This document shows positions 14,129-28,158 of a stretch of DNA of 60,246 nucleotides, piece after piece. The first letter of the stretch is position 1. Each line of letters begins with the position of its first letter. Location: NCBI GenBank assembly GCA_019359235.1, contig JAHHHT010000043.1, positions 1 to 60,246 of the forward strand, given 5' to 3'. The translations under genes were made by a program, and so were the position numbers. The stretch is from Oscillatoria princeps RMCB-10 (GTDB lineage: Bacteria; Cyanobacteriota; Cyanobacteriia; Cyanobacteriales; Oscillatoriaceae). The notes under the pieces were generated by a model. That model had not been told where the DNA came from and ran no database searches. It saw only the letters and a list, made by a program, of their open reading frames with translations.

Positions 14129-14998
14129 CTACTGGGTATCACAATATGGGTTCTGATCGACCAGATTCTCAGGCATTTTATCTATAAACCACTGAGACTT
14201 GTTTGGATCGAATATAAGTTCCACTATCCGGCTTTCACACGCTGTTTCGCCGTTTTTATAGATATATTTTAGCCAGACTTGTATCTGACGATTGCTCAGG
14301 GTTTTAAAAGCATAGGTTTCTACGCTGTTTACTGAATCCCAGAAAGAACTTGTTCCGTTGCTCTTGGGATTTTGCTGTTTATAAGTTTTTTTAAAAGCAT
14401 CGCTAAGTAAGGCTTTAGCTTCCGCTCTATTTGATGGAGCTAATTGATAATATCTGGCAATAACTTGTTTAGGAGTTAATTGAGGTTGCCGGTTCTGAAT
14501 AGAAGAAATCAGTGCTGTATAATTCTTTGAAAAAGAACCTAGTTGAGCAGTCCACCAGCCAATGCCAAAAACTATACAGAGTATTGCAGCCCATCCCCAT
14601 TTCCTTGAAGATGGACTACCTTCTGTGCGAGATGAGCCACCTGAATTTGTAGATATTGAATTTAAAGACGTAGTATTTCTTGAAGTAGAAGAGCCGGTAG
14701 AACTGGTAGGACGCGAATTTACTGTTGGGGTTGGAGAACTTGTGGCTGGAGTATTAGAGTTTGTATTTGAAACGTTGACTCCTGTCCTTCTATTCGTTTC
14801 AAGGCGTGTTGGCGGAGCCGAGCGAGCTGTGGCGAGAACAGCATTTGTGAATTGGCAGAAACAGCGCCTTTTCTGTTCCCATTCAGCTATCGTCATGACA
14901 ATAGGACAATTAGGACGAAGGCACTTCATTCCTTGTTCACCTTCCCTGAACTGATGCAAGCTGTATGGCGATTTAATACCTGGTTCAAACGTTACCAT
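14129..14998 (-). CDS. Membrane protein with N-terminal Cys-rich domain and NTF2-like C-terminal domain
   Basis: 289 residues; last gene of the ubiquitin-like operon. The N-terminal ~55 residues (FEPGIKSPYSLHQF, then MKC-x4-C and a CxC pair) are nearly identical to the first Cys domain of the neighbouring 166-residue protein. Next comes a Ser/Thr/Asn-rich linker (residues 68-130), one membrane helix (about 133-152) and a C-terminal domain from about 165 (PKQVIARYYQLAPSNRAEAKALLSDAFK..., ...SFWDSVNSVE) that resembles the NTF2-like domain attached to cyanobacterial Ser/Thr kinases. It is 16 bases after the upstream gene. Topology would put the Cys domain and the NTF2 domain on opposite sides of a membrane. 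Function unknown; a ligase or adaptor role is inference. Confidence 0.72.
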   Translation of the reverse strand: MVTFEPGIKSPYSLHQFREGEQGMKCLRPNCPIVMTIAEWEQKRRCFCQFTNAVLATARSAPPTRLETNRRTGVNVSNTNSNTPATSSPTPTVNSRPTSSTGSSTSRNTTSLNSISTNSGGSSRTEGSPSSRKWGWAAILCIVFGIGWWTAQLGSFSKNYTALISSIQNRQPQLTPKQVIARYYQLAPSNRAEAKALLSDAFKKTYKQQNPKSNGTSSFWDSVNSVETYAFKTLSNRQIQVWLKYIYKNGETACESRIVELIFDPNKSQWFIDKMPENLVDQNPYCDTQ

Positions 14999-15014
14999 CT
15001 CTAGAAAATTAATC

Positions 15015-15515
15015 TTATTTAGTTAACAGCGCAACAATTACAAAAACTAAAAAGCCACTGAGGGCTGAAATTACAATAATTTGCCATTTTTGAGGGAAAG
15101 GAGCTCTGGGTCGCCAAACTGGCAAGGGTGGATATTGCTCTCCGGGATAAATGGCTATGGCTGGAGCGGCATTTGTATGCCCTAAAATACATTTTCCTTT
15201 TACTTCCCAAGCCTGATTGGTCATAACTTTTTCACAGGTGAGACACTTCATTCCCCGCTCATTTGCAACAAACTTATGGGCAGTCCAACAACACGCTACA
15301 CCTGCCTGGAAAGTTTCAAGGCGTGTTGGCGGAGCCGAGCGAGCTGTGGCGAGAACAGCATTTGTGTATTGGCAGAAACAGCGCCTCTTTTCTTCCCATT
15401 CAGCTATCGTCATAACACGAGTACAGCCAGGTCGAAGGCACTTCATTCCTTGTTCACCTTCCCTAAACTGATGCAAGCTGTATGCTGATTTAATACCTGG
15501 TTCAAACGTTTCCAT
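15015..15515 (-). CDS. Tail-anchored protein with two Cys/His (treble-clef-like) domains
   Basis: 166 residues. Two tandem metal-binding-like units: unit 1 (residues ~10-50) with C-x4-C and CxC; unit 2 (~70-115) with ACC-x3-H, then GMKC-x2-C and C-x3-H. The shared frame is G-M-K-C, two variable residues, C, a conserved W, then a C-x(1-3)-C/H pair. A Pro-rich linker (PPLPVWRPRAPF) and a single C-terminal helix (IIVISALSGFLVFVIVALL) follow, so it is tail-anchored. The spacing of unit 2 (C-x2-C-x14-C-x3-H) matches the first half of a RING/treble clef but lacks the usual later pair. An E3-like role in the ubiquitin-like pathway is plausible but unproven. Confidence 0.72.
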   Translation of the reverse strand: METFEPGIKSAYSLHQFREGEQGMKCLRPGCTRVMTIAEWEEKRRCFCQYTNAVLATARSAPPTRLETFQAGVACCWTAHKFVANERGMKCLTCEKVMTNQAWEVKGKCILGHTNAAPAIAIYPGEQYPPLPVWRPRAPFPQKWQIIVISALSGFLVFVIVALLTK

Positions 15516-15531
15516 CTCTAGAGAGTTAATC

Positions 15532-15927
15532 TTATTTAGTTAACAGAGCAACAGTCACAAAAATTAAAAAGCCACTGATGGCTGAAATTACAATAATTTG
15601 CCATTTTTGAGGGAAAGGAGTTTTTGCATCTCGCCACCTTAGTTGATATCTAGCTCTGGGTCGCTGAACTGGCGGGGGTGGCTCTCGCCATTCTAGTTCA
15701 AGTCTAGATCGGGGAGTTCGCGTATGAGGTGTAGGATTCCTTGATGACCTGGGATAAATAGCTATGGCTAGAACGGCATTTGTATGTCCTAAACGACATT
15801 TTCCTTTTTCTTCCCAAGCCTGATTGGTCATAACTTTTTCACAGGTGAGACACTTCATTCCCCGCTCATCTGCAACAAACTTATGGGTACTCCAACAACA
15901 CGTTACACCTGCCTCGAAAGTTTCCAT
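15532..15927 (-). CDS. Tail-anchored protein with one Cys/His domain and two LxWRD/E motifs
   Basis: 131 residues, paralogue of the downstream 166-residue protein. It has one Cys/His unit (TCC-x3-H, GMKC-x2-C, C-x3-H), then a basic Pro/Arg-rich linker carrying ELEWRE and QLRWRD, and a C-terminal helix (IIVISAISGFLIFVTVALL) ending in LTK. The two LxWR motifs sit next to the membrane anchor, as if to display them at the membrane surface. It lies 16 bases before the next gene and 33 after the previous one, so is co-transcribed. Candidate membrane adaptor or ligase; function unproven. Confidence 0.72.
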   Translation of the reverse strand: METFEAGVTCCWSTHKFVADERGMKCLTCEKVMTNQAWEEKGKCRLGHTNAVLAIAIYPRSSRNPTPHTRTPRSRLELEWREPPPPVQRPRARYQLRWRDAKTPFPQKWQIIVISAISGFLIFVTVALLTK

Positions 15928-15960
15928 CTTTGTTGTAATAGTCCGGCTAAATAAGAACAG

Positions 15961-16599
15961 TCACCTCGTATTTTTCCGCGTCGAGTTTCTGGTTTTACGA
16001 GAGGATGGCGGCTGAGGGTTTATCCCTGGCGCTGCGTTCGTATCCGGTGTAGCATCTCGCCAGTTTAACGCTTTTTTAGACGCCTCAGTTACGGAGCCTG
16101 TATCATTGGCATCTCGCCAGTTAAGAGGTCTAGTGCTAGATTGATATTGCGCGACCAGACGGTCGAAAATTTGGGCTTCATAAGGAGACATCTCTACACC
16201 GCGATCTCTCCCTCCATACCCTGCATTACCATAGGCTTGACGCGCTCTGTAGGCTGCTAGTTTTTTGACTTGTTGAGATGTTAACTGACCAGGCACTCCA
16301 GATGTTAAATTCAGTTCTTGCTGTTCCGCATCTGTTAGATTCAAGGAACTCATTTCATTTTGTCTTTGGATTCCCTCCATAAAATCCTCGGCATGCATAA
16401 TGTGCCTGTTGCCAACTTTGACTTGACAATACCAGCGACCGTTGCTTTGCCAGTAATGATCGTGAGCCACAACACTGTTACTTTCAAGGCTATCTCGGTC
16501 GCCCGAACATAAAAGCTCCCATCTTCCATCAGGGTTTTGTTTGAACTTATACCAAAGATGGCCGATTTGCTTGGCTTCGCTCCAGGTTGGTTCTGACAT
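15961..16599 (-). CDS. Unknown 212-residue protein with two LNWRD motifs
   Basis: Not recognised. An N-terminal region (residues ~10-85) is rich in Trp, Tyr and His (LWYKFKQNPDGRWELLCSGD, HDHYWQSNGRWYCQVKVGN) and looks like a compact beta-rich domain. A helical middle follows (LTDAEQQELNL, LTSQQVKKLAAYRARQAYG). The C-terminal part is flexible and carries two LNWRDA motifs (about residues 160 and 177), then a basic Arg/Thr tail. It is 11 bases after the ATPase gene and 33 before the Cys/His protein, so it belongs to the operon. A substrate or scaffold of the conjugation system is possible. Confidence 0.7.
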   Translation of the reverse strand: MSEPTWSEAKQIGHLWYKFKQNPDGRWELLCSGDRDSLESNSVVAHDHYWQSNGRWYCQVKVGNRHIMHAEDFMEGIQRQNEMSSLNLTDAEQQELNLTSGVPGQLTSQQVKKLAAYRARQAYGNAGYGGRDRGVEMSPYEAQIFDRLVAQYQSSTRPLNWRDANDTGSVTEASKKALNWRDATPDTNAAPGINPQPPSSRKTRNSTRKNTR

Positions 16600-16610
16600 A
16601 ATTTACCTCT

Positions 16611-18386
16611 TTATTCACCGTCACGCCAGTTTAGTCTTTGTCTGTTGCTTTGCTGTAGGTTTTGCCCTTGATTTGAGTCAGGATCGCGCCAATTTAATCT
16701 GTCTTGCTGTTCGTTCTGCCTTTGGTTAGAGTTGTCTTCGCGCCAAATTAATATAGGAGAACTTGCGCCTGGAATCGCTGTGGCTTGTGATGCAGACTCG
16801 CGCCAATTTAAACGACGTGGGGGTTGCCAGGTAGTGCTTGGCGCGAGTACCCTTTCATAATCCACTAAAAAAGGTTTGCGACAAGCTGTTCTAGAATGAA
16901 CGATAGCGACATATTGATTGCCTACAGGATACTGAATTTCTCTCGTATCCAGTACCGGAGCTGATTCGCGCCAGTTTTCATAACGCTCGCGGTCAAAATG
17001 AGTCCGCAGCCAAGGAAACTCATCTTGTGGGTTAGGTTCATGGTGTCTGCGCCTTCTCACATTCTGATTGCGATTTCCCAGACGACTGCTCAACCACTCA
17101 GCCGCACCGGCACCCACACCCCGACAGAGAACAACCGTATCGAAATTTTCCATCACCTGCTCTCGATATTCTGGGGTAATTTGCTCCAGGCTTTGAGCGG
17201 CAATAACAATACTTCCTTTCGCTGAACGCGCCACACTTGTAAACTCAGCAACATCTATTTGTTGCTGGATTCGGGGAAACTCATCAATCCAAAAGACAAT
17301 CCCTTGCTCGCCCTCATTTTGAGTCCATCGCTCATAAAAGATAGTCATCAGAATATCAATGAGCGCCGCTGATATTTTTTTGGAAACATCACGCCCTGCT
17401 AACTCAGCCCCAATGACTAATAAGGTAGGGCGACGCTGAATATCTCGCAGTAAAATGTCACTGTGTCCTGTGACTTGCTCAAAGTTTGGCCAGCCAAAAA
17501 AGCTGATCGCATCCTGAATTGCCCAAGTAAAAGCGCTGTCCCCACTATCACTATTTTGAATCAGTCTGAGTTGAGATTGAATAGCGGCTTGTAATCTAGT
17601 ATCCGGGCATAACCGTAAAAATTGAGTTAGAGTTTCAACAGGATTCTGGGCAATTTGGTAAATATGCTTGAGGGTTGCCGCCTCCCCAAAAACCTGCTTA
17701 ATCAGCATAATCCACTGAGCCATCCAAGCGATGTCTCTCATGGCAAAATGCCGACTCTCTCCTAAGTTGTCCGTGCTGCCATACAAGCAGCTAGCTAAGA
17801 TTTGAGCGTCTTGTATAGAGTATATATTATCCAGTAAGTTAATACTGTGGCTGCGGTAAACTTCTTGGGGATGTGTGCTCCAATAGATTACCCTCACTCC
17901 TTTTTGCTGTGCGTACTCACCTAGCTTATCTATGAGGGAGCCACCTTTAACGTCAATCACGATGTTAGATAACCCAGCATCAATTGCAGCCTTAATGCCG
18001 GGAACGATCAACCCTTCTGTTTTCCCGGAACCCGGTGGCCCAATAATGGCTACATTTTTGTAAATGGATTTTTCTTGCATCCAAACCTCTTGAGTTGGCT
18101 TTACTTTACCCCCGGCTATTTTCAAGAATTTCCCCAGGTCGAGAACGGGTTGGGATGCGTATCTATCTGGATGTTTTAAAATTCGGCAATTGTGAAGCGG
18201 AGATCCAGGAGACTTAAGAACATCGGTAATTTCATTCAGAGTTGCTGTTCCTGAGTAATCCCTTAAATCTCTCAGGTGAATATCTGTAGGCGGCAAAGGT
18301 TCGTTGGGGCCAAGAATAGTTTCGCCACCCCCGAACAGGTTTCGTAACCCCCAGCCTAAGTTTTCAAAAGAGTCTTGCCAAGTCAT
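16611..18386 (-). CDS. VirD4/TraG-like P-loop ATPase with a tail of LxWRD/E motifs
   Basis: 591 residues. Walker A is GPPGSGKT at residues 116-123, Walker B IVFWIDEF at 363-370, and the flanking pattern (VIDVKGGS, TLLVIGAEL, VIAAQSLEQI) is that of type IV secretion coupling proteins of the VirD4/TraG/TraD group. Unlike VirD4 there is no clear N-terminal membrane pair. From residue 470 the protein carries five tryptophan motifs: YENWRE, LNWRE (526-530), LIWRE (546-550), LNWRD (564-568) and LNWRD (585-589), the last four in a Gln/Asn-rich tail. No relaxase or mating-pore gene is nearby, so it probably works inside this operon, for example as an unfoldase or translocation motor. That role is inference. 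Confidence 0.85.
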   Translation of the reverse strand: MTWQDSFENLGWGLRNLFGGGETILGPNEPLPPTDIHLRDLRDYSGTATLNEITDVLKSPGSPLHNCRILKHPDRYASQPVLDLGKFLKIAGGKVKPTQEVWMQEKSIYKNVAIIGPPGSGKTEGLIVPGIKAAIDAGLSNIVIDVKGGSLIDKLGEYAQQKGVRVIYWSTHPQEVYRSHSINLLDNIYSIQDAQILASCLYGSTDNLGESRHFAMRDIAWMAQWIMLIKQVFGEAATLKHIYQIAQNPVETLTQFLRLCPDTRLQAAIQSQLRLIQNSDSGDSAFTWAIQDAISFFGWPNFEQVTGHSDILLRDIQRRPTLLVIGAELAGRDVSKKISAALIDILMTIFYERWTQNEGEQGIVFWIDEFPRIQQQIDVAEFTSVARSAKGSIVIAAQSLEQITPEYREQVMENFDTVVLCRGVGAGAAEWLSSRLGNRNQNVRRRRHHEPNPQDEFPWLRTHFDRERYENWRESAPVLDTREIQYPVGNQYVAIVHSRTACRKPFLVDYERVLAPSTTWQPPRRLNWRESASQATAIPGASSPILIWREDNSNQRQNEQQDRLNWRDPDSNQGQNLQQSNRQRLNWRDGE

Positions 18387-18404
18387 GTTGTTTTTTTATC
18401 GGTC

Positions 18405-19418
18405 TTATTGCAGGTGCTGGTTACTTTGCGGCTGTGATGGTTGCGACTCTAGGGGTTGCGACTCTAGGGGTTGCGACTCTAGGGGTTGCGACTCTGATGG
18501 TGGCGGATATGATGTTTGCGGCGAGTTTGGTGGTTGTGAACTTTGCGGATAAGATTGAAATATTTTCCGGATCAGTCGAGTCAACCAAGATCCAGGTATA
18601 AAAATAATCTTCAGAGCAGCCATATCCCCAATCACAATACCTGGATTTGAACGTTCAGGTTGCTCACTGCTTTCTGGTTGGCTGGGGGAAAATGGTGCTA
18701 ATTCAGAGCTATCCTGCACCTGTTCCGAGCGAGTAACTGGTGGCAATTGTGGCTCTCTTCGGTGTGGTTGTGGTTGTTCTTGTGGCTGTGGTTCTTGAGG
18801 TTCGTCTCGCCACTGGAGTTGCTGAGAATATTTTTCCAAGTAAATAGGCTCAATCCTTTTACCTTCTGCACCGTAAAAGAACCCTATCTCTTTGCGCAGA
18901 GGATCGTATACCACCGCAATCTGCCAAATCTGCTTAAAAGATAATCTTTGAGTATTTAAGTCAGTCCCCGATAAGAATATACCATGACCTGGATGGGAGT
19001 GATACCAGCCAACAATTGTTGTTCCAGGAAAATCTTGTTTGTGAGTGCTAATAATTGCTTGCCAGCATTCCGGTGTGAACTGAAAGTGAACTCGATTGCC
19101 TACCGTGTATGGAGCAGCAATAGAGCCAACTATTTCTGTATAGTATTTTTTGCTTTTTGGGCATAAATAAGCTTGGCCAACTACAACTCCTCCCGTTTCA
19201 TTATAAGGGTCATGGCTCAGATGTTGGATCAGTTGACTCACAGCTTCCCGTTCCACAAAAACACTCATGGATTGGCTGCTAATTTCTCTGAATAGAGATT
19301 CAATGTTCCTGCTGGATGAGCCAGCGAATCGCTGTTGCTTATCTCGCAAAAAATTCCTTAGATGTCTGGCTATCGGTTTGTAAACATCTTCACAATCACG
19401 CCACTGAAGTCTAGCCAT
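18405..19418 (-). CDS. JAMM/JAB metallopeptidase, probable Ubl-processing and deconjugating enzyme
   Basis: 337 residues. The JAMM zinc site is complete: Glu74 (NETGGVVVG), His140 and His142 (YHSHPG), Ser150 and Asp153 (FLSGTD). The family cleaves isopeptide or peptide bonds after ubiquitin-like C-termini; here it is the obvious candidate to remove the 5-residue tail from the Ubl encoded upstream. LQWRD occurs right at the N-terminus (residues 4-8) and again after the catalytic domain (about 204-208). The C-terminal half is Pro/Gln/Ser-rich with one conserved-looking hydrophobic patch ([20 protein letters not shown]) and ends in repeats of P-L-E-S-Q encoded by a 15-bp tandem repeat. Confidence 0.92.
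18435..18496. repeat. 15-bp tandem repeat in the 3' end of the JAMM gene
   Basis: Four units of GGTTGCGACTCTAGG-type sequence encode the repeated pentapeptide PLESQ near the C-terminus of the JAMM protein. Units are nearly identical, so copy number may vary by slippage. Confidence 0.8.
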
Positions 19419-19542
19419 ATTTTATGCGCAACTTTAAAAACCTGAAAAATATATCTGGATTTTAACCCTGTATAAACTTGATAGGGAGCGCTAAGAGTTC
19501 AGGTATCTATATTAGATTCAAGCACATCCCTATCTATATCAT

Positions 19543-20034
19543 CTATCTCCAATTCAGCTTATTTAATGGAAATAAGTGCTGATTTATATTAGCCCAGTCT
19601 CTGGCTGTAGAGTTAGCAGGTACTCCAAACCTAAGGTTTTCATACTGAATCATCCTAATGACTCTCTTTACCAGAGCATCCAGAGGTTCATTTACTTTTT
19701 GCAAATCACTGCCCCTGAAACAAAATCTACCATCTGAGTAAACATTAGGATGAAACATCGGTGCTTCTAACTTAACTACCGGTAACACACCTGTATCGGG
19801 ATAAGATTCGGGAAAATCTTTTATGCAAATAATATGTTCTGTCCGATACTTAGGCGTACTACCGCTAACGGATTCTACTCCTTTGCAGTTGGATAATTGG
19901 ATGCGGTAATAATCCGGCGGATTACCTCTTGCCTCCAATATCGTGATTTTGACTGGTTTGACTGACTCATTGAAAACACAGAGCTTTTGTAAAGAACGGT
20001 AATCATTAGCCAGTCTATCCTGCCTAAGAGTCAT
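19543..20034 (-). CDS. E2-like ubiquitin-conjugating enzyme fold protein
   Basis: 163 residues. The segment from FPESYP through APMFHPNVYSDGRFCF matches the UBC-fold signature: Pro-rich loop, strand, HPN (residues 95-97), then the Gly-x-x-Cys active site with Cys105. A helix follows (EPLDALVKRVIRMIQYE) and a PANSTARDW segment like the C-terminal helices of E2 enzymes. It would receive the Ubl from the E1-like protein as a thioester on Cys105. The protein ends exactly with KLNWR, one of the operon-wide tryptophan motifs. Its start overlaps the end of the Ubl gene by 11 bases, indicating translational coupling; 124 bases separate it from the JAMM gene. Confidence 0.9.
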   Translation of the reverse strand: MTLRQDRLANDYRSLQKLCVFNESVKPVKITILEARGNPPDYYRIQLSNCKGVESVSGSTPKYRTEHIICIKDFPESYPDTGVLPVVKLEAPMFHPNVYSDGRFCFRGSDLQKVNEPLDALVKRVIRMIQYENLRFGVPANSTARDWANINQHLFPLNKLNWR

Positions 20035-20287
20035 AATTATAGCCTCCTTCTGCTCTAGGTGTTAATATCAATAAAGCTCCTGATTGAATGCCCGCACTTT
20101 GAAGGGTGTCGCTTTCTCGTAACACCTTGTTGGTTTTATCTAAAATAAGATCGCAAGGAACTGACAATAAATTTGCCTGTTCTTGAGCGCCATCTTTCAC
20201 TTGACTTATTAACATATCTAGAGGGACATCGACTGTCTTTTTGAAAGTGCCATCAACGGTTCTAACCGTTACAGTAATTGTTTCCAT
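20024..20287 (-). CDS. Ubiquitin-like protein with C-terminal Gly-Gly and 5-residue tail
   Basis: 87 residues with a beta-grasp pattern: TITVTVRT, TFKKTVDVP, a helix (ISQVKDGAQEQANLL), LILDKTNKVL, TLQSAGIQSGALLILTP, much like YukD and ubiquitin. It ends RAEGG then YNYDS, so Gly81-Gly82 would be exposed by removing five residues. I chose the ATG at 20287 rather than the upstream in-frame ATG at 20329: GCGAGGAAATT gives a ribosome-binding site right before it, and the decayed copy upstream starts at the equivalent point. Embedded between E1-like and E2-like genes, it is the likely modifier of the pathway. Confidence 0.9.
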   Translation of the reverse strand: METITVTVRTVDGTFKKTVDVPLDMLISQVKDGAQEQANLLSVPCDLILDKTNKVLRESDTLQSAGIQSGALLILTPRAEGGYNYDS

Positions 20288-20359
20288 AATTTCCTCGCTC
20301 TCCTCATCCGTTGGTTGGTTGTTCTTCAAAAACTATTTCTGGCTGTACCGGCAGCTAAA

Positions 20360-20479
20360 TTATATTTGGGATCGATAATAACGAATCACCTGATTTGCTC
20401 GCACCGATGCAGGAGGAACTTCGGCGATTTTCTGAAAGCTCCTATCAGCTGTTCTGACTGTTACGGGAATTGTTTCTAT
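20360..20479 (-). pseudogene. Decayed duplicate of the ubiquitin-like gene
   Basis: Immediately after the E1-like stop codon the minus strand reads IETIPVTVRTADRSFQKIAE, clearly homologous to the first 20 residues of the intact Ubl (METITVTVRTVDGTFKKTVD). The start codon is ATA instead of ATG. Similarity fades after about 26 residues and the frame stops 39 codons in, before any Gly-Gly. It is a truncated relic of a tandem Ubl duplication. Confidence 0.75.
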
Positions 20480-20482
20480 GAT

Positions 20483-21652
20483 TCAGTCAGCATCCTGATG
20501 AGTCTGTTTGGAGTCAGAAAATAGCTCGATATTTACGCGCCACTGGTAAGTTTGGCCGTTGTAGGCAAGCAACTCGCGCTCGCCTAACCCAAAATCCCTA
20601 AATGGCAAGTCAGCATCTTCAGAATCAGCAGCTAGCCTAAAATACTTGACAGCTTCTCTGTTTGAATTATCACATTTTGGGCACTGAGTATCACCCTGCT
20701 TGATTTCTTTGATAGGTTTTTTAACCGGCTCTATATACCCACAACTATGACAGGTAAACTTAGAGACAAAATCAAAGGGTAACTCTAGCTGCCAGTCCTC
20801 CCATAAATCTAATTCTTGGGCCACTTTTTGGGGCGTGCTATCAAATTTAGCTGCGAAAGCAGAGGTTCCGCCCTTTTGGGTAATTGATGCGTGATCGGGG
20901 CAATCTCGATCCAGAGTAAATTCAATGGTGCGGAAGCCCATCGGATTGCTAACCGGCAAAAATAACTGTGTTCCTGGTTTTAGGTGACTTTCCCCAAAGA
21001 CCAAAAGTTGTACTGCTACCTCTACTTGGTAAGCTGCAATGACAGAAGAGGTCATAATGGTGGTGGCCATCGTTGGCTCTTTAAAACTGTCCTTCAGATA
21101 CCCGCACGAGTACCTTTCGTTAAGCCTTTCCCAAGCTGACCGATCCATTTGGCAGCGATAGCAGGCTGTTTCTGGAACTCTGGGATCGAAAAGCGCTACA
21201 TTCCCTAATTGGTGGTTGATCCCGCCATCGACCCAAGGGACACCGGCAAAATAGCACCGTTTATTAATTTCCCGTCTAGCCCCAATACTGTCCAAACAGC
21301 CGAACACTACATCCATCTCCCGCAGCAAGCCGCGCCCAAAAGCAAACTCTAACTTGCCAATAATCGGATATACTTGAGCGTCAGGGTTTAATTCCTTAAC
21401 CCTCTGGGCCACCACCTCCGCTTTATATCTGCCTATGTCCGACTCCCTAAACAAAACCGAGCGCGTCAAGTTGTGGATTTCGATAGTGTCATAGTCCACG
21501 ACCCAAATATGACCCACTCCCAGCAAGGCCAAGTTTTTAAGCACTTCGTTCCCTAGTGCGCCACAGCCAAATACAGCTACTTTAGCATTGGCCAGCTTTT
21601 CTTGGCTCCAGTTTGGAATGCGTTTTAGGCGGTCGTATTTGTCGTCAGACAT
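20483..21652 (-). CDS. E1-like (ThiF/MoeB family) adenylating enzyme
   Basis: 389 residues; first gene of the operon. The Rossmann nucleotide site is GCGALG (residues 29-34), with Asp53, Arg64, Lys77 and Asp121 in the positions used by E1/MoeB/ThiF enzymes for ATP. Structural zinc ligands are probably C164-x2-C167 and C251-x2-H254. Cys183 (YSCGYLKDSFKEPT) is the best candidate for the catalytic thioester cysteine. An added C-terminal zinc ribbon (C301-x2-C304 and C324-x2-C327) is not part of the core fold and could recruit the E2 or a partner. YQWR near residue 370 resembles the operon-wide motif. It would adenylate the Ubl C-terminal Gly and pass it to the E2-like protein. Confidence 0.92.
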   Translation of the reverse strand: MSDDKYDRLKRIPNWSQEKLANAKVAVFGCGALGNEVLKNLALLGVGHIWVVDYDTIEIHNLTRSVLFRESDIGRYKAEVVAQRVKELNPDAQVYPIIGKLEFAFGRGLLREMDVVFGCLDSIGARREINKRCYFAGVPWVDGGINHQLGNVALFDPRVPETACYRCQMDRSAWERLNERYSCGYLKDSFKEPTMATTIMTSSVIAAYQVEVAVQLLVFGESHLKPGTQLFLPVSNPMGFRTIEFTLDRDCPDHASITQKGGTSAFAAKFDSTPQKVAQELDLWEDWQLELPFDFVSKFTCHSCGYIEPVKKPIKEIKQGDTQCPKCDNSNREAVKYFRLAADSEDADLPFRDFGLGERELLAYNGQTYQWRVNIELFSDSKQTHQDAD

Positions 21653-24614: not shown

Positions 24615-25349
24615 CTAGGCATTCTGCTTGACCTTCCGACTGCGCAACCGGGCCAAGATTGCGCCACCCAGCGCCAAACCGCCGAGAGTAGTGGGTTCGG
24701 GTACGGCTGCGAGAACTTTGTCACTTCCGCCACCAGCGTTCACCTGCTGGAAGCGACCGGCTGCTTGCAGTGAGCCACCTTGAAATCCACTTTGGAATGC
24801 GCTTTCAACACCGGCAGCGGTGAGGTTATTGCCGCTCAGCAAAAAGCTAACACTAGAAGATTGGCCGGCAGTCAGACCTTGCTGGGGATTGCCACCCACA
24901 AAGTTGCCAGATCCAGCGGAGCGAATGCCATAACTGAACGAATTGCTGACGTTCGGTAAACCCGGTATAGAGACGTTGGTGTAAGTCTTTGTAAAGGCGC
25001 TGGAGCCTGGATTGTAAGTGAATGTGCTGACGATAGTCGGCAGGTCGAACGCCACCCCAACCAGAGTTGCCGCAGTTGCCCCCAGCCCAGCTGAGCCGTT
25101 GGTCGTGTTTTTGATATCGAGGTTGAGCAGGACCTGCGCCCCCTGCTGGACAAAATTGAAGTCGAGCTTCGCTGTTGCGCCAGTGTTCTCGGTGCTGCCA
25201 TACTGGGGAGCGATAGACAAGCCGAAAGCCTGTGCCGGCGCTGCAGTCAGCGCGGTTGATGCGAGGGCCATCCCGGCAGCCAGCGCGGTTGTGCCGGCAA
25301 GAGCGCGAGTGGAGAGAGAGGTTAAAAGATTACTATTTTTCATATTCAT
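24615..25349 (-). CDS. PEP-CTERM sorting-domain protein, paralogue 1
   Basis: Exported protein of about 244 residues. An N-terminal signal peptide (TALAAGMALASTALTAAPAQA) precedes a beta-rich, Gly/Ser/Thr/Asn-rich body. The C-terminus is a typical PEP-CTERM signal: VPEPTTLGGLALGG, a short hydrophobic run, then basic RLRSRKVKQNA. Such proteins are handled by an exosortase and end up at the cell surface or in the matrix. The ATG at 25349 has GGGGGTGGGA just upstream; the frame could begin at a GTG six bases earlier or at ATG 25343. It shares most of its sequence and its upstream region with the gene at 26624-27376. Confidence 0.85.
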   Translation of the reverse strand: MNMKNSNLLTSLSTRALAGTTALAAGMALASTALTAAPAQAFGLSIAPQYGSTENTGATAKLDFNFVQQGAQVLLNLDIKNTTNGSAGLGATAATLVGVAFDLPTIVSTFTYNPGSSAFTKTYTNVSIPGLPNVSNSFSYGIRSAGSGNFVGGNPQQGLTAGQSSSVSFLLSGNNLTAAGVESAFQSGFQGGSLQAAGRFQQVNAGGGSDKVLAAVPEPTTLGGLALGGAILARLRSRKVKQNA

Positions 25350-26212
25350 TCCCACCCCCTAAGAGGAGAGATGCTAAACTTTCAGGAGAGATGGCTGAGT
25401 TTGTGAAGCCTGCCAGTCTGTCCTTGTGGTTGACCGCCAATTTCATTGTGGCACTCTTATACAGCAATTCTTAGCAGTTTGCCTGTATCTTTAATCAAAA
25501 TTTTTTTTAGCCCGGGTTTTCTTAAAGATTGAGTGAAATCCCTCACTTTTACGCACAATTGCGGTTGACAGCCCGCGTGCTGCATGCTTTTATTGCCGGC
25601 TCACTCCGCAAAATCACGGAATCTGAGGGCGATCAGTTTTTAATATATGTTAACAGGATAGTCTATTGATAAAAAAGTTAATAGGAAATCTTTAGATGAC
25701 CCCTGGGGTTGGGAGGCGCGGTCAGGGGTGGGGGGTTTCCTTCAGGGAAGAGCAAACAAGCAATTTAGGCCAAGTAGGCAGCTGGCTGCAGACGCCGCCG
25801 GCAGGGAAAGAAGGTTTCAAGGCGGCAAGGCAGGAAGGCTGCAATACCAATTTTATTTAATCGTGAAACAGATAGTTCTGGCCCCCCCCTTTTTAAGGGG
25901 GGCTGGGGGGGATCTGAACTGTTCGATCGCAAAAGAAAATTGATATAATGTCCAAACCTCCTGCAGCTGCCGGTGGCAACAGCACGCACAACCCGCTCGG
26001 GCAAAGGCAACCATCCGAGAAGCGGATGTGCCACCGGCGGGCTACTGGTGGTGTTTTTGAGCAAGCAACCGGCGGAAGTCTGCCAGTTGGGGAATGGCTG
26101 CAAGAGCGATCTGCCAGTGAAGGCAAGCAACTGCGGCTTGCGCCGGCATGTCCAAATAGCACATCGCCCTCTTGCGCCCAACGGTCAGCGGATAGGAATC
26201 GCCACGGAACAA
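25350..26212. other. PEP-CTERM promoter region and repeat DNA
   Basis: Bases 25356-25620 resemble 27386-27640 (shared TGGCACTC, GGTTTTCTTAAAG, AATTGCGGTTGAC blocks), so the promoter was duplicated with the gene. A partial GATCCCCCC-type element lies at 25881-25914. The remaining frames to 26212 look like decayed sequence. Confidence 0.5.
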
Positions 26213-26623: not shown

Positions 26624-27376
26624 CTAGGCATTCTGCTGAACTTTCCGACTGCGCAACCGGGTCGCGAGTGCGCCACACAGTGCGAGACCGGCGAGAGCGC
26701 TGGGTTCGGGTACGTCTACCGGATCTGGGTCAGGTGTGACGAGGCCGGCGAGCACTTTGTCACTTCCGCCACCAGCGTTCACCTGCTGGAAGCGACCGGC
26801 AGCCTGCAGTGAGCCACTTTGATATCCACTGAAGAATGCGCTTTCAGCACTGGCAGCGGTGAGGCCCGCGCCACTCAGCAAAAAGCTCACAGCAGTAGAT
26901 TGGCCGGCGGTCAGACCTGCTTGGGGATTGCCACCGACAAAGTTACCAGTTCCAGCAGAGCGCATGCCGAAATCGAATGGGCCGGCCAAACCCGGTATCG
27001 AGACATTGAAGAATTCCCGTATGAAGTTGCTGGAGCCTGGATCGAAATCGAAGCTGCTGACGATATCCGGCAGGTCTAGCGCAACCCCAACCAGAGTTGC
27101 CGCAGTCGCCCCCAGCCCAACAGAGCCGTCAGTCGTATTTGTAATACCGAGGTTGAGCGTAACGCCCCCAGCCGTGTCCGCAAAGTCGAAGTCCAGCTCA
27201 GCTGTTGCGCCAGTGTCTTCGGTGCTGCCGAACTGCGGATTGATGGACAAGCTGAACGCCTGCGCCGGCGCTGCTGTGAAGGCGGAAGAGGCGAGGGCCA
27301 AACCGGCTGCCAGAGCGGCTGTCCCGGCTAGCGCACCTTGAGGCAGAAGAGCGGTAAAGAGATTAGTGCTTTTCAT
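26624..27376 (-). CDS. PEP-CTERM sorting-domain protein, paralogue 2
   Basis: About 250 residues, close paralogue of the gene at 24615-25349 (shared STEDTGATAELDFDF, GLGATAATLVGVALDLP, AAGRFQQVNAGGGSDKVLA). Signal peptide about residues 10-40 ending AAPAQA; C-terminus VPEPSALAGLALCGALATRL then RSRKVQQNA. Compared with paralogue 1 it has a short Asp/Pro-rich insert (TPDPDPVD) before the PEP motif. I prefer the ATG at 27376, aligned with MKNSN of the paralogue and preceded by GGGA; an in-frame ATG at 27385 is possible. Confidence 0.85.
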   Translation of the reverse strand: MKSTNLFTALLPQGALAGTAALAAGLALASSAFTAAPAQAFSLSINPQFGSTEDTGATAELDFDFADTAGGVTLNLGITNTTDGSVGLGATAATLVGVALDLPDIVSSFDFDPGSSNFIREFFNVSIPGLAGPFDFGMRSAGTGNFVGGNPQAGLTAGQSTAVSFLLSGAGLTAASAESAFFSGYQSGSLQAAGRFQQVNAGGGSDKVLAGLVTPDPDPVDVPEPSALAGLALCGALATRLRSRKVQQNA

Positions 27377-28158
27377 AATTCCCATCCGGTACGATAAGAG
27401 AAGCTGAACTATCGGGATAGATGACTGAGTTGATCCGGTCTGCGACCGCGTATCTGTCCTTGACCGACGATTTTAGTATGGCACTCACCTCTGCCCGTTG
27501 CAAGCCCTTCCCTCTATCTTTAACAAAAAATTATTTTGGCCCCGGTTTTCTTAAAGTTTGAGTTAACTCTCTCAAACATCCGCAAAATTGCGGTTGACGC
27601 TAGGGAAGTTGCAGGCATTTTATTTCGGATCACCGCAAAATCTCGGAACAGGCTATTTATAGCGTTTCTCATATTAGTGTGCTACGGAGAAACTTTTTTC
27701 CTGAGACAACGAGTAAACATGCAATCCCAGCTTAACGCCCCGGTCGCTTGTGACGCCGCCGGCAAGTTGGAAGGCTACAGGGCTCTACCATTTTGAGGTT
27801 CTAACGTCCCAACCTTCTGTAGCTGCCGGTGGCCATAACGCACTGCCACAGCCAAACTGGGCATTCTGGCTAGCCTTGCACCGGCGCTCTGGCCGCCAGC
27901 ACCCCTGTCACCCAGCCCAAACTTGGCCCAGCCCCACCGGCGGCGTCCCGCACAGGGGAATGATAAGGATACAGCCGAAATTGAGACAAACCGGCAGCCG
28001 GTGGCACGCCACAGGAGGAGGCGGCGGGCGTCCCGCGCCTGCCGGCGTGCCAAGACACGCGCCGCTGAGAGAAAATCTGCGTTAATCTGCGTTAATCTGC
28101 GGTTAAAAAGCGGGGCATATTCCCATCCTACCACGCAAAATCCCCCAGCCGGTTCCGC
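27377..28158. other. Duplicated promoter and second decayed PEP-CTERM tail
   Basis: 27386-27640 mirrors the promoter of paralogue 1. Around 27858-27935 the minus strand reads GLGWVTGVLAAR and, after a one-base frame shift, RRCKASQNAQ: a disrupted PEP-CTERM tail like that at 26213. Minus-strand frames in the rest are built of Arg/Gly/Ala-rich repeat sequence. Confidence 0.5.

Follow-up and report, generated by a model that had tools for sequence, protein, structure and literature searches.

A stretch of 60,246 nucleotides from the cyanobacterium Oscillatoria princeps RMCB-10 (assembly GCA_019359235.1, contig JAHHHT010000043.1; the whole stretch is hereafter the window) carries nine consecutive minus-strand open reading frames (ORFs) at positions 14129-21652, the place and strand given by an initial annotation made from the sequence alone. 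Their products are a ThiF-type E1, a single-domain ubiquitin-like protein (Ubl), a Rad6-like E2, an Rpn11-like JAMM isopeptidase, a VirD4-like ATPase, a 212-aa protein and three Zn-module proteins. Eleven copies of a short motif, L-x-W-R-[DE], are distributed over five of these proteins, a feature absent from the observations of the initial annotation. We propose, with a confidence just short of an even chance, that the operon encodes a self-contained bacterial system of Ubl conjugation, in which a short motif peculiar to the operon brings the parts together on the Ubl, and that its likeliest purpose is defence against incoming DNA.

The conjugation core comprises four genes, listed here with the basis of each assignment in brackets.

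20483..21652, minus strand: E1-like adenylating enzyme with a ThiF/MoeB fold, Cys183 and a C-terminal zinc ribbon, CxxC...CxxC (Pfam, alignment, PDB profile)
20024..20287, minus strand: Ubl with one beta-grasp domain and a C-terminus of GG followed by YNYDS (Pfam, PDB profile, start Met of relatives)
19543..20034, minus strand: Rad6-like E2 with HPN...Cys105 and a C-terminal tail ending KLNWR (Pfam, alignment, PDB profile)
18405..19418, minus strand: Rpn11-like JAMM/JAB isopeptidase with one motif copy at the N-terminus and another following the domain (Pfam, alignment, PDB profile)

The initial annotation had claimed a complete E1-Ubl-E2-JAMM set in one minus-strand run, and the ORFs, the Pfam matches and profiles built from relatives bear this out, as alignments do for the catalytic residues it named. 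The E1 matches Pfam ThiF at 6e-51, above the cut-off; GxGAxGNE and C183 are present in all 11 aligned sequences, among which C301, C304, C324 and C327 are invariant, and the profile from its relatives matches PDB chains of UBA7, UBA1 and MoeB. The E2 reaches 25.6 bits with Pfam UQ_con (1e-5), below the cut-off of 27, a doubt that is removed because the profile from its relatives matches Rad6/UBE2B at 4e-15. H95, P96 and C105 are invariant in 13 of 13 aligned E2 sequences, and no histidine after C105 is invariant or nearly so in that alignment. The JAMM protein matches Pfam Prok-JAB at 2e-9, above the cut-off, and the corresponding profile finds Rpn11-type chains at 4e-22; its site is complete, with E74, H140, H142, S150 and D153 all kept in 13 of 13 aligned sequences. 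In three related loci (L028, L031 and L074) the E2 profile finds a weak match in the N-terminal part of the JAMM protein, a part that in L028, by eye, lacks a Cys at the active place.

The Ubl is listed with a TTG start at 20329; its relatives begin at the ATG at 20287, the probable start, which gives a protein of 87 aa (87-101 aa over the two starts) with a single beta-grasp domain. Its match to Pfam ubiquitin (8e-4, 19.6 bits) falls below the cut-off of 25.4, YukD is matched at 2.7e-3, and even the profile from relatives remains weak against single-domain chains (ubiquilin, 3e-4). The C-terminus reads GGYNYDS, that is, Gly-Gly plus five residues, as had been annotated. The Gly-Gly codons (within 20024-20060) sit in an AAGGAGG stretch resembling the Shine-Dalgarno sequence of the overlapping E2 gene, and in the related Dulcicalothrix locus (L006) a similar GAAGGAGG precedes the E2. 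The UBC and beta-grasp folds implied by the initial annotation were both predicted by AlphaFold2 (pLDDT 90) for the Ubl and E2 of a relative, L069, joined in one chain by reading through a stop codon.

Relatives of the E2 are present in 13 of 386 genomes sampled across the phylum. The order yields them in 31 of 388 genomes, the class in 6 of 388 and another class of this phylum in 5 of 18; by family, they occur in 3 of 8 genomes of the window's own, 12 of 61 in a second and 3 of 10 in a third; these samples overlap, and a few of the matches are weak. Forty loci with an E2 match were examined and 37 counted, L089, L090 and L091 being excluded for a weak E2 or a longer fused protein; a weak match in one genome (G316, 3.9e-4) was likewise excluded. 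The 37 are not independent, since L022, L023 and L085 are close relatives, as are L080, L084, L086 and L087. The genes proved to be linked in other genomes: the order E1-Ubl-E2-JAMM is kept in 34 of the 37 loci, in four of which the Ubl is recognised only by its place and a DAG ending, and at least one core gene escaped detection in each of L071, L076 and L087. Neither of the two outcomes that the initial annotation named as refuting its reading, failure of the predicted folds and absence of linkage elsewhere, was obtained. L071 and L076 look degraded, with a split or shortened E1 and no JAMM found, and a stop lies within the E2 stretch of the L076 genome. In L081 the Ubl gene and the E2 gene each occur twice, and the tail of the second E2 ends IKWK in place of LNWR.

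The motif copies, read from the sequence, number one in the E2 tail, where the stop codon ends the motif early, two in the JAMM protein, four in the VirD4 tail and two each in the 212-aa and 131-aa proteins.

19543..19557, minus strand: E2 tail, LNWR followed by the stop
19395..19409, minus strand: JAMM N-terminus, LQWRD
18804..18818, minus strand: following the JAMM domain, LQWRD
16620..16811, minus strand: VirD4 tail, LNWRE, LIWRE, LNWRD and LNWRD
16054..16125, minus strand: 212-aa protein, two LNWRD
15628..15696, minus strand: 131-aa protein, LEWRE and LRWRD

Across 164 operon proteins of the 37 loci, a set that leaves aside E1, the Ubl and the motor domain of VirD4, [ILV]-x-W-x-[DE] occurs 147 times against 15.8 expected from shuffles, whereas the reversed pattern occurs twice against 14.8 expected. 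A wider variant, defined as [ILV]xWx[DEKRN] or a terminal WR, WK or WL, lies in the end parts of 108 of these 164 proteins, compared with 34 of the 299 further ORFs in these loci; at least one protein bears it in 33 of 37 operons and at least two do in 28. Genes were listed with a simple ORF caller, so that some neighbours may lie outside the operons. The acidic form is found in 0 of 35 Ubl proteins, and matches in E1 are mainly DWWD and PWVD stretches, so that by eye E1 seems free of the motif outside its folded parts. The window copies use five Leu codons and four Arg codons and have dissimilar flanks, which argues for selection on the protein and not for the simple spread of a DNA repeat. 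The regular spacing of about 20 residues in the VirD4 and 212-aa tails would suit neutral repeats, spread via duplication or gene conversion; given the varied synonymous codons and flanks, the strong bias in motif direction and the occurrence of the variant in loci from two classes of the phylum, we regard that origin as very improbable.

The motif differs in type between operons: LNWRD prevails in the window's kind, IVWND or IEWVE in others, and VKWHK, VRWHK or IRWRR in L021 and L083. From one operon to the next, unrelated proteins tend to switch type in step. The E2, JAMM, VirD4 and effector proteins of L021 all carry the VKWHK/IRWRR type, in an operon whose identity to that of the window is 75% for VirD4, 63% for E1, 43% for E2, 34% for JAMM and 25% for the Ubl. 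The beta2 segment of the L021 Ubl is acidic (KEEEATV), and most others have basic residues there. In a scan relating motif charge to the charge of sequence segments (E2 tail, 35 loci; JAMM head, 33 loci, with six motifs set by hand from the alignment), the JAMM-head motif finds its most negative correlation of 736 segments in Ubl beta2 (r -0.49 phylogenetically corrected, -0.78 raw). In the L069 prediction the E2-tail motif forms a beta-strand at 254-257, in a block of pLDDT 88 preceded by one of 59, a single case. We suggest, tentatively and at appreciably less than an even chance, that the free Ubl is a hub, that a Trp motif specific to each operon and co-evolving with the Ubl edge recruits the E2, the JAMM protein, the DNA motor, swappable effectors and kinases, and that effectors join by gaining a tail. 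As a separate observation, the E2 tails of L028, L031 and L074 read KKKFQI(Q/E) and their JAMM heads VKFEI.

The remaining five genes of the operon are as follows.

16611..18386, minus strand: VirD4/TraG-like ATPase with four tail motifs and no N-terminal transmembrane segments (Pfam, PADLOC, hydropathy)
15961..16599, minus strand: 212-aa putative effector with two motifs and a basic TRKxTR-type tail (family alignment)
15532..15927, minus strand: 131-aa Zn-module protein with a C-terminal transmembrane segment and two motifs (sequence, alignment, hydropathy)
15015..15515, minus strand: 166-aa protein with a C-terminal transmembrane segment and a pair of Zn modules, the first placed by alignment and the second by eye (sequence, alignment, hydropathy)
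14129..14998, minus strand: 289-aa Zn-module protein with a borderline transmembrane segment and a C-terminal domain of no assigned fold (sequence, alignment, hydropathy)

The ATPase matches Pfam T4SS-DNA_transf at 7e-19 (68.4 bits, cut-off 20.1), TraG-D_C at 4e-11 and the PADLOC mad8 model at 4e-9. It has the ATPase domain of the VirD4/TraG family with Walker motifs (GPPGSGKTE and FWIDE) and lacks the N-terminal transmembrane anchor, no 19-residue segment exceeding the hydropathy threshold of 1.6 (maximum 1.57, at residue 126). The initial annotation had counted this motor as part of the system. The match to T4SS-DNA_transf upholds its identity, but the motor is not essential: it follows JAMM in 11 of 37 loci, and none was seen in 26, a few of which end at a contig edge. 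The accessory genes of loci without it encode a Ser/Thr kinase, TPR proteins, small Zn-module proteins of the membrane and a 190-aa protein of unassigned kind. In L067 (10951-11904) and L070 (10277-11773), Ser/Thr kinases, recognised by Pfam and by eye, respectively, bear the motif in their C-terminal tails, and that of L070 is fused to the 190-aa 'IEPDLC' domain. The 212-aa protein has no match in Pfam or the PDB; AlphaFold2, given this protein alone, places its motif regions mostly below pLDDT 50, and its place is taken in both L021 and L075 by a nuclease-like protein whose tail bears motifs of that kind.

Three membrane Cys/His proteins had been annotated; a transmembrane segment is clear in two of them and borderline in the 289-aa protein. 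The Zn modules of VirD4-bearing operons (CxxC...W...CxC) align with those of the remaining operons, and Prok-RING_1, with E allowed up to 10, picks up 7 of 20 modules (best 9.2e-5), compared with at most 3 for other zinc families; as whole proteins, one matches Prok-RING_1, at 10.5 bits against a cut-off of 29.1. These matches, together with the membrane segments, make the Zn-module proteins candidate membrane E3-like proteins.

By homology, the JAMM protein would trim the Ubl to GG, the E1 would adenylate it and load it onto the Rad6-like E2 at Cys105, and the Rpn11-like JAMM could take it off again. The membrane Zn-module (RING-like) proteins may act as E3 or platform, placing conjugates at the inner membrane. 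We propose further that [ILV]-x-W-x-[DE] extends the Ubl sheet at its edge by a beta-strand, in the manner of a SUMO-interacting motif (SIM), so that E2 and JAMM could hold the Ubl or Ubl chains through it, and that tail-motif arrays might call the VirD4-like motor and a swappable effector (here the 212-aa protein; in relatives, a nuclease-like protein) to Ubl-marked sites. Docking of the motif on the Ubl, the E3 role and the recruitment of motor and effector are thus the inferred steps of the scheme.

Several observations weigh against this scheme. L075, with one Ubl, has acidic motifs in JAMM but basic ones in VirD4 and the effector; E2 and JAMM diverge in L021 too; and over all operons the basic form [ILV]xWx[KR] occurs at chance (16 vs 15.5), as does the F form [ILV]xFx[DE] (35 vs 37.9). 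No W motif was seen in any of the proteins of L028, L030, L031 and L074. The effector fold has no match, and PADLOC yields domain matches only (E1-E2, JAB and mad8). The charge test for Ubl docking is weak and mixed: for the E2 tail the best Ubl segment ranks 12th of 742 (r -0.39), behind JAMM and E1 segments, the mean of both motifs places an E1 segment first (r -0.45) and the Ubl fourth, positive correlations elsewhere are just as large (up to 0.65), and by our count the signal rests on about two independent switches. These rankings, with the apparent freedom of E1 from the motif, would also suit a system in which conjugation is real but the motif docks on another hub (E1, the E2 surface or a host protein) and the change of the Ubl in L021 and L083 is coincidental; the partner of the strand predicted by AlphaFold2 may be the Ubl or the E2 itself. 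Set against such a hub are the change of motif type in an operon whose E1 remains 63% identical while the Ubl falls to 25%, and the position of the top JAMM-head segment in Ubl beta2. We consider another hub a doubtful but substantial alternative to docking on the Ubl.

As to purpose, DNA-directed defence, against phage or plasmid, is likely, and is inferred from the patchy spread, plasmid carriage, effector swapping, the mad8 match and the part that Bil plays in defence (PMC12948488). Low GC also fits a mobile defence locus: in 2-kb windows GC is 41-47% within 14-22 kb, except for 51% in one straddling the left edge, and 49-61% elsewhere, so that the initial annotation was right to call the operon more AT-rich than its surroundings. 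The Crinalium epipsammum copy lies on the mobilizable plasmid pCRI9333.03, beside CyRepA1 and ParM-family genes, and by eye ParA/ParB-like ORFs follow the Dulcicalothrix copy. This setting, and the conjugative nature of the VirD4 family, would also suit a role of the VirD4-bearing operon in plasmid biology (controlling conjugation or keeping rival plasmids out) and not phage defence, with the VirD4-like protein a soluble coupling-type motor or a decoy. However, no relaxase or other type IV secretion (T4SS) gene is seen by eye among the ORFs of 9-27 kb, ten products of which were scanned with Pfam, most related loci have no VirD4 in view, and the window's contig carries chromosomal-looking genes (RimO-like and a DEAD-box protein, by eye); we think a plasmid role unlikely. 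Slightly less likely still is membrane protein quality control or signalling, in which RING-like proteins would tag with the Ubl, with kinase or TPR partners and no defence: the Ser/Thr kinase (Pkinase 2e-39) and TPR proteins of VirD4-less loci do bear the motif, and the JAMM protein there is membrane-anchored, but patchy presence, two degraded-looking copies and a replaced effector typify accessory and not housekeeping genes.

The operon is present in single copy in the 8.49-Mb host genome, where an E1 search returns the operon copy and four far weaker paralogues and an E2 search one match. To the right of the operon, at 24615-25355 and 26624-27385 (minus strand), lie two similar neighbouring proteins that by eye look like PEP-CTERM secreted proteins.

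As the initial annotation held, the operon differs from Bil and CBASS. Membership in CBASS type II (Cap2/Cap3) was rejected, as E1 and E2 are separate genes and no CD-NTase occurs among the 10 products scanned. BilABCD (PMC11354881) likewise gathers E1, E2, JAB and Ubl in one operon, but its Ubl has two tandem domains and its E2 reads C-E-H-H after the catalytic Cys, whereas here the Ubl has one beta-grasp domain (the L069 relative being the one folded), the E2 is of the HPN/Cys kind and there are extra genes; membership was rejected on the Ubl and the E2.

Closer is type 6d of Iyer, Burroughs and Aravind (PMC1779556), from a catalogue of 2006 that includes separate-gene bacterial E1/E2/JAB/Ubl operons, some of them cyanobacterial (row 6d); it has separate Ubl, JAB, E1 and E2 genes with a further protein of unknown kind and occurs in Anabaena. 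Its E2 lacks the classical histidine, unlike the invariant H95 here. Its JAB has an N-terminal alpha+beta domain with a conserved Arg and Trp, which could be the window's motif, a lead that likens it by description alone to the L-x-W-R of the JAMM N-terminus here. Neither TraG nor VirD4 occurs in the text of that paper. The earlier claim that the operon matches no published type that can be named is therefore too strong for the core, which was catalogued in 2006; the VirD4 arm and the operon-wide motif were not found in the literature searched.

Two of the excluded loci, L089 (5926-7374) and L090 (6502-7956), encode proteins of 482-484 aa in which a helical-looking N-terminal domain, a Ubl and an E2 form one chain, with a separate E1 and JAMM nearby. 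The N-terminal domain we take to be EAD1-like. RING-bearing bacterial operons were reportedly described by Burroughs and colleagues in 2011. In the window's order, L089 and L090 resemble the FtsH-ternary conflict systems, which, like the window, tie conjugation (E1, RING E3, JAB and Ubl) to effectors through a shared adaptor, EAD1 (PMC7159879, whose section 21 describes RING-bearing systems); there the adaptor is a domain and the Ubl is fused to the E2, whereas here the adaptor would be a 5-residue motif and the Ubl is free. The Caldiarchaeum subterraneum cluster (PMC5654768) shares separate, clustered genes for E1, E2, a Ubl with residues after GG, an Rpn11-type JAMM and a RING-type protein. 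It is archaeal, whereas the window's kind is bacterial, has as its sole RING candidate the weak Prok-RING_1-like module on membrane proteins, and adds the VirD4 motor, the swappable effector and the operon-wide motif. With the eukaryote/archaea-type cascade the operon shares a UBC-fold E2 with HPx and a catalytic Cys and an Rpn11-like JAMM with a complete site.

The core of the operon is thus of a known kind, the VirD4 arm and operon-wide motif are apparently new, and the motif could prove to be a new principle. The SIM core is rich in V and I, whereas the motif here is centred on Trp, and its binding to the Ubl is a proposal. The likeness to SUMO and SIM (PMC12687455) lies in the proposed beta-strand addition to the edge of the modifier and in motifs borne on disordered tails of enzymes, protease and effectors; short motifs recruit partners to SUMO in this way and, through comparable grooves, to ATG8, UFM1 and ATG12 (PMC12687455). 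If the motif binds the Ubl, the operon would present short-linear-motif recruitment to a ubiquitin-family modifier in a compact, single-operon bacterial form. It would then offer a simple reader code for a bacterial Ubl, by which unknown effectors could be found from their tails, and a small model of how modifier-reader networks arise, while a Rad6-like E2 and an Rpn11-like JAMM in a bacterial operon bear on the origin of the eukaryotic system.

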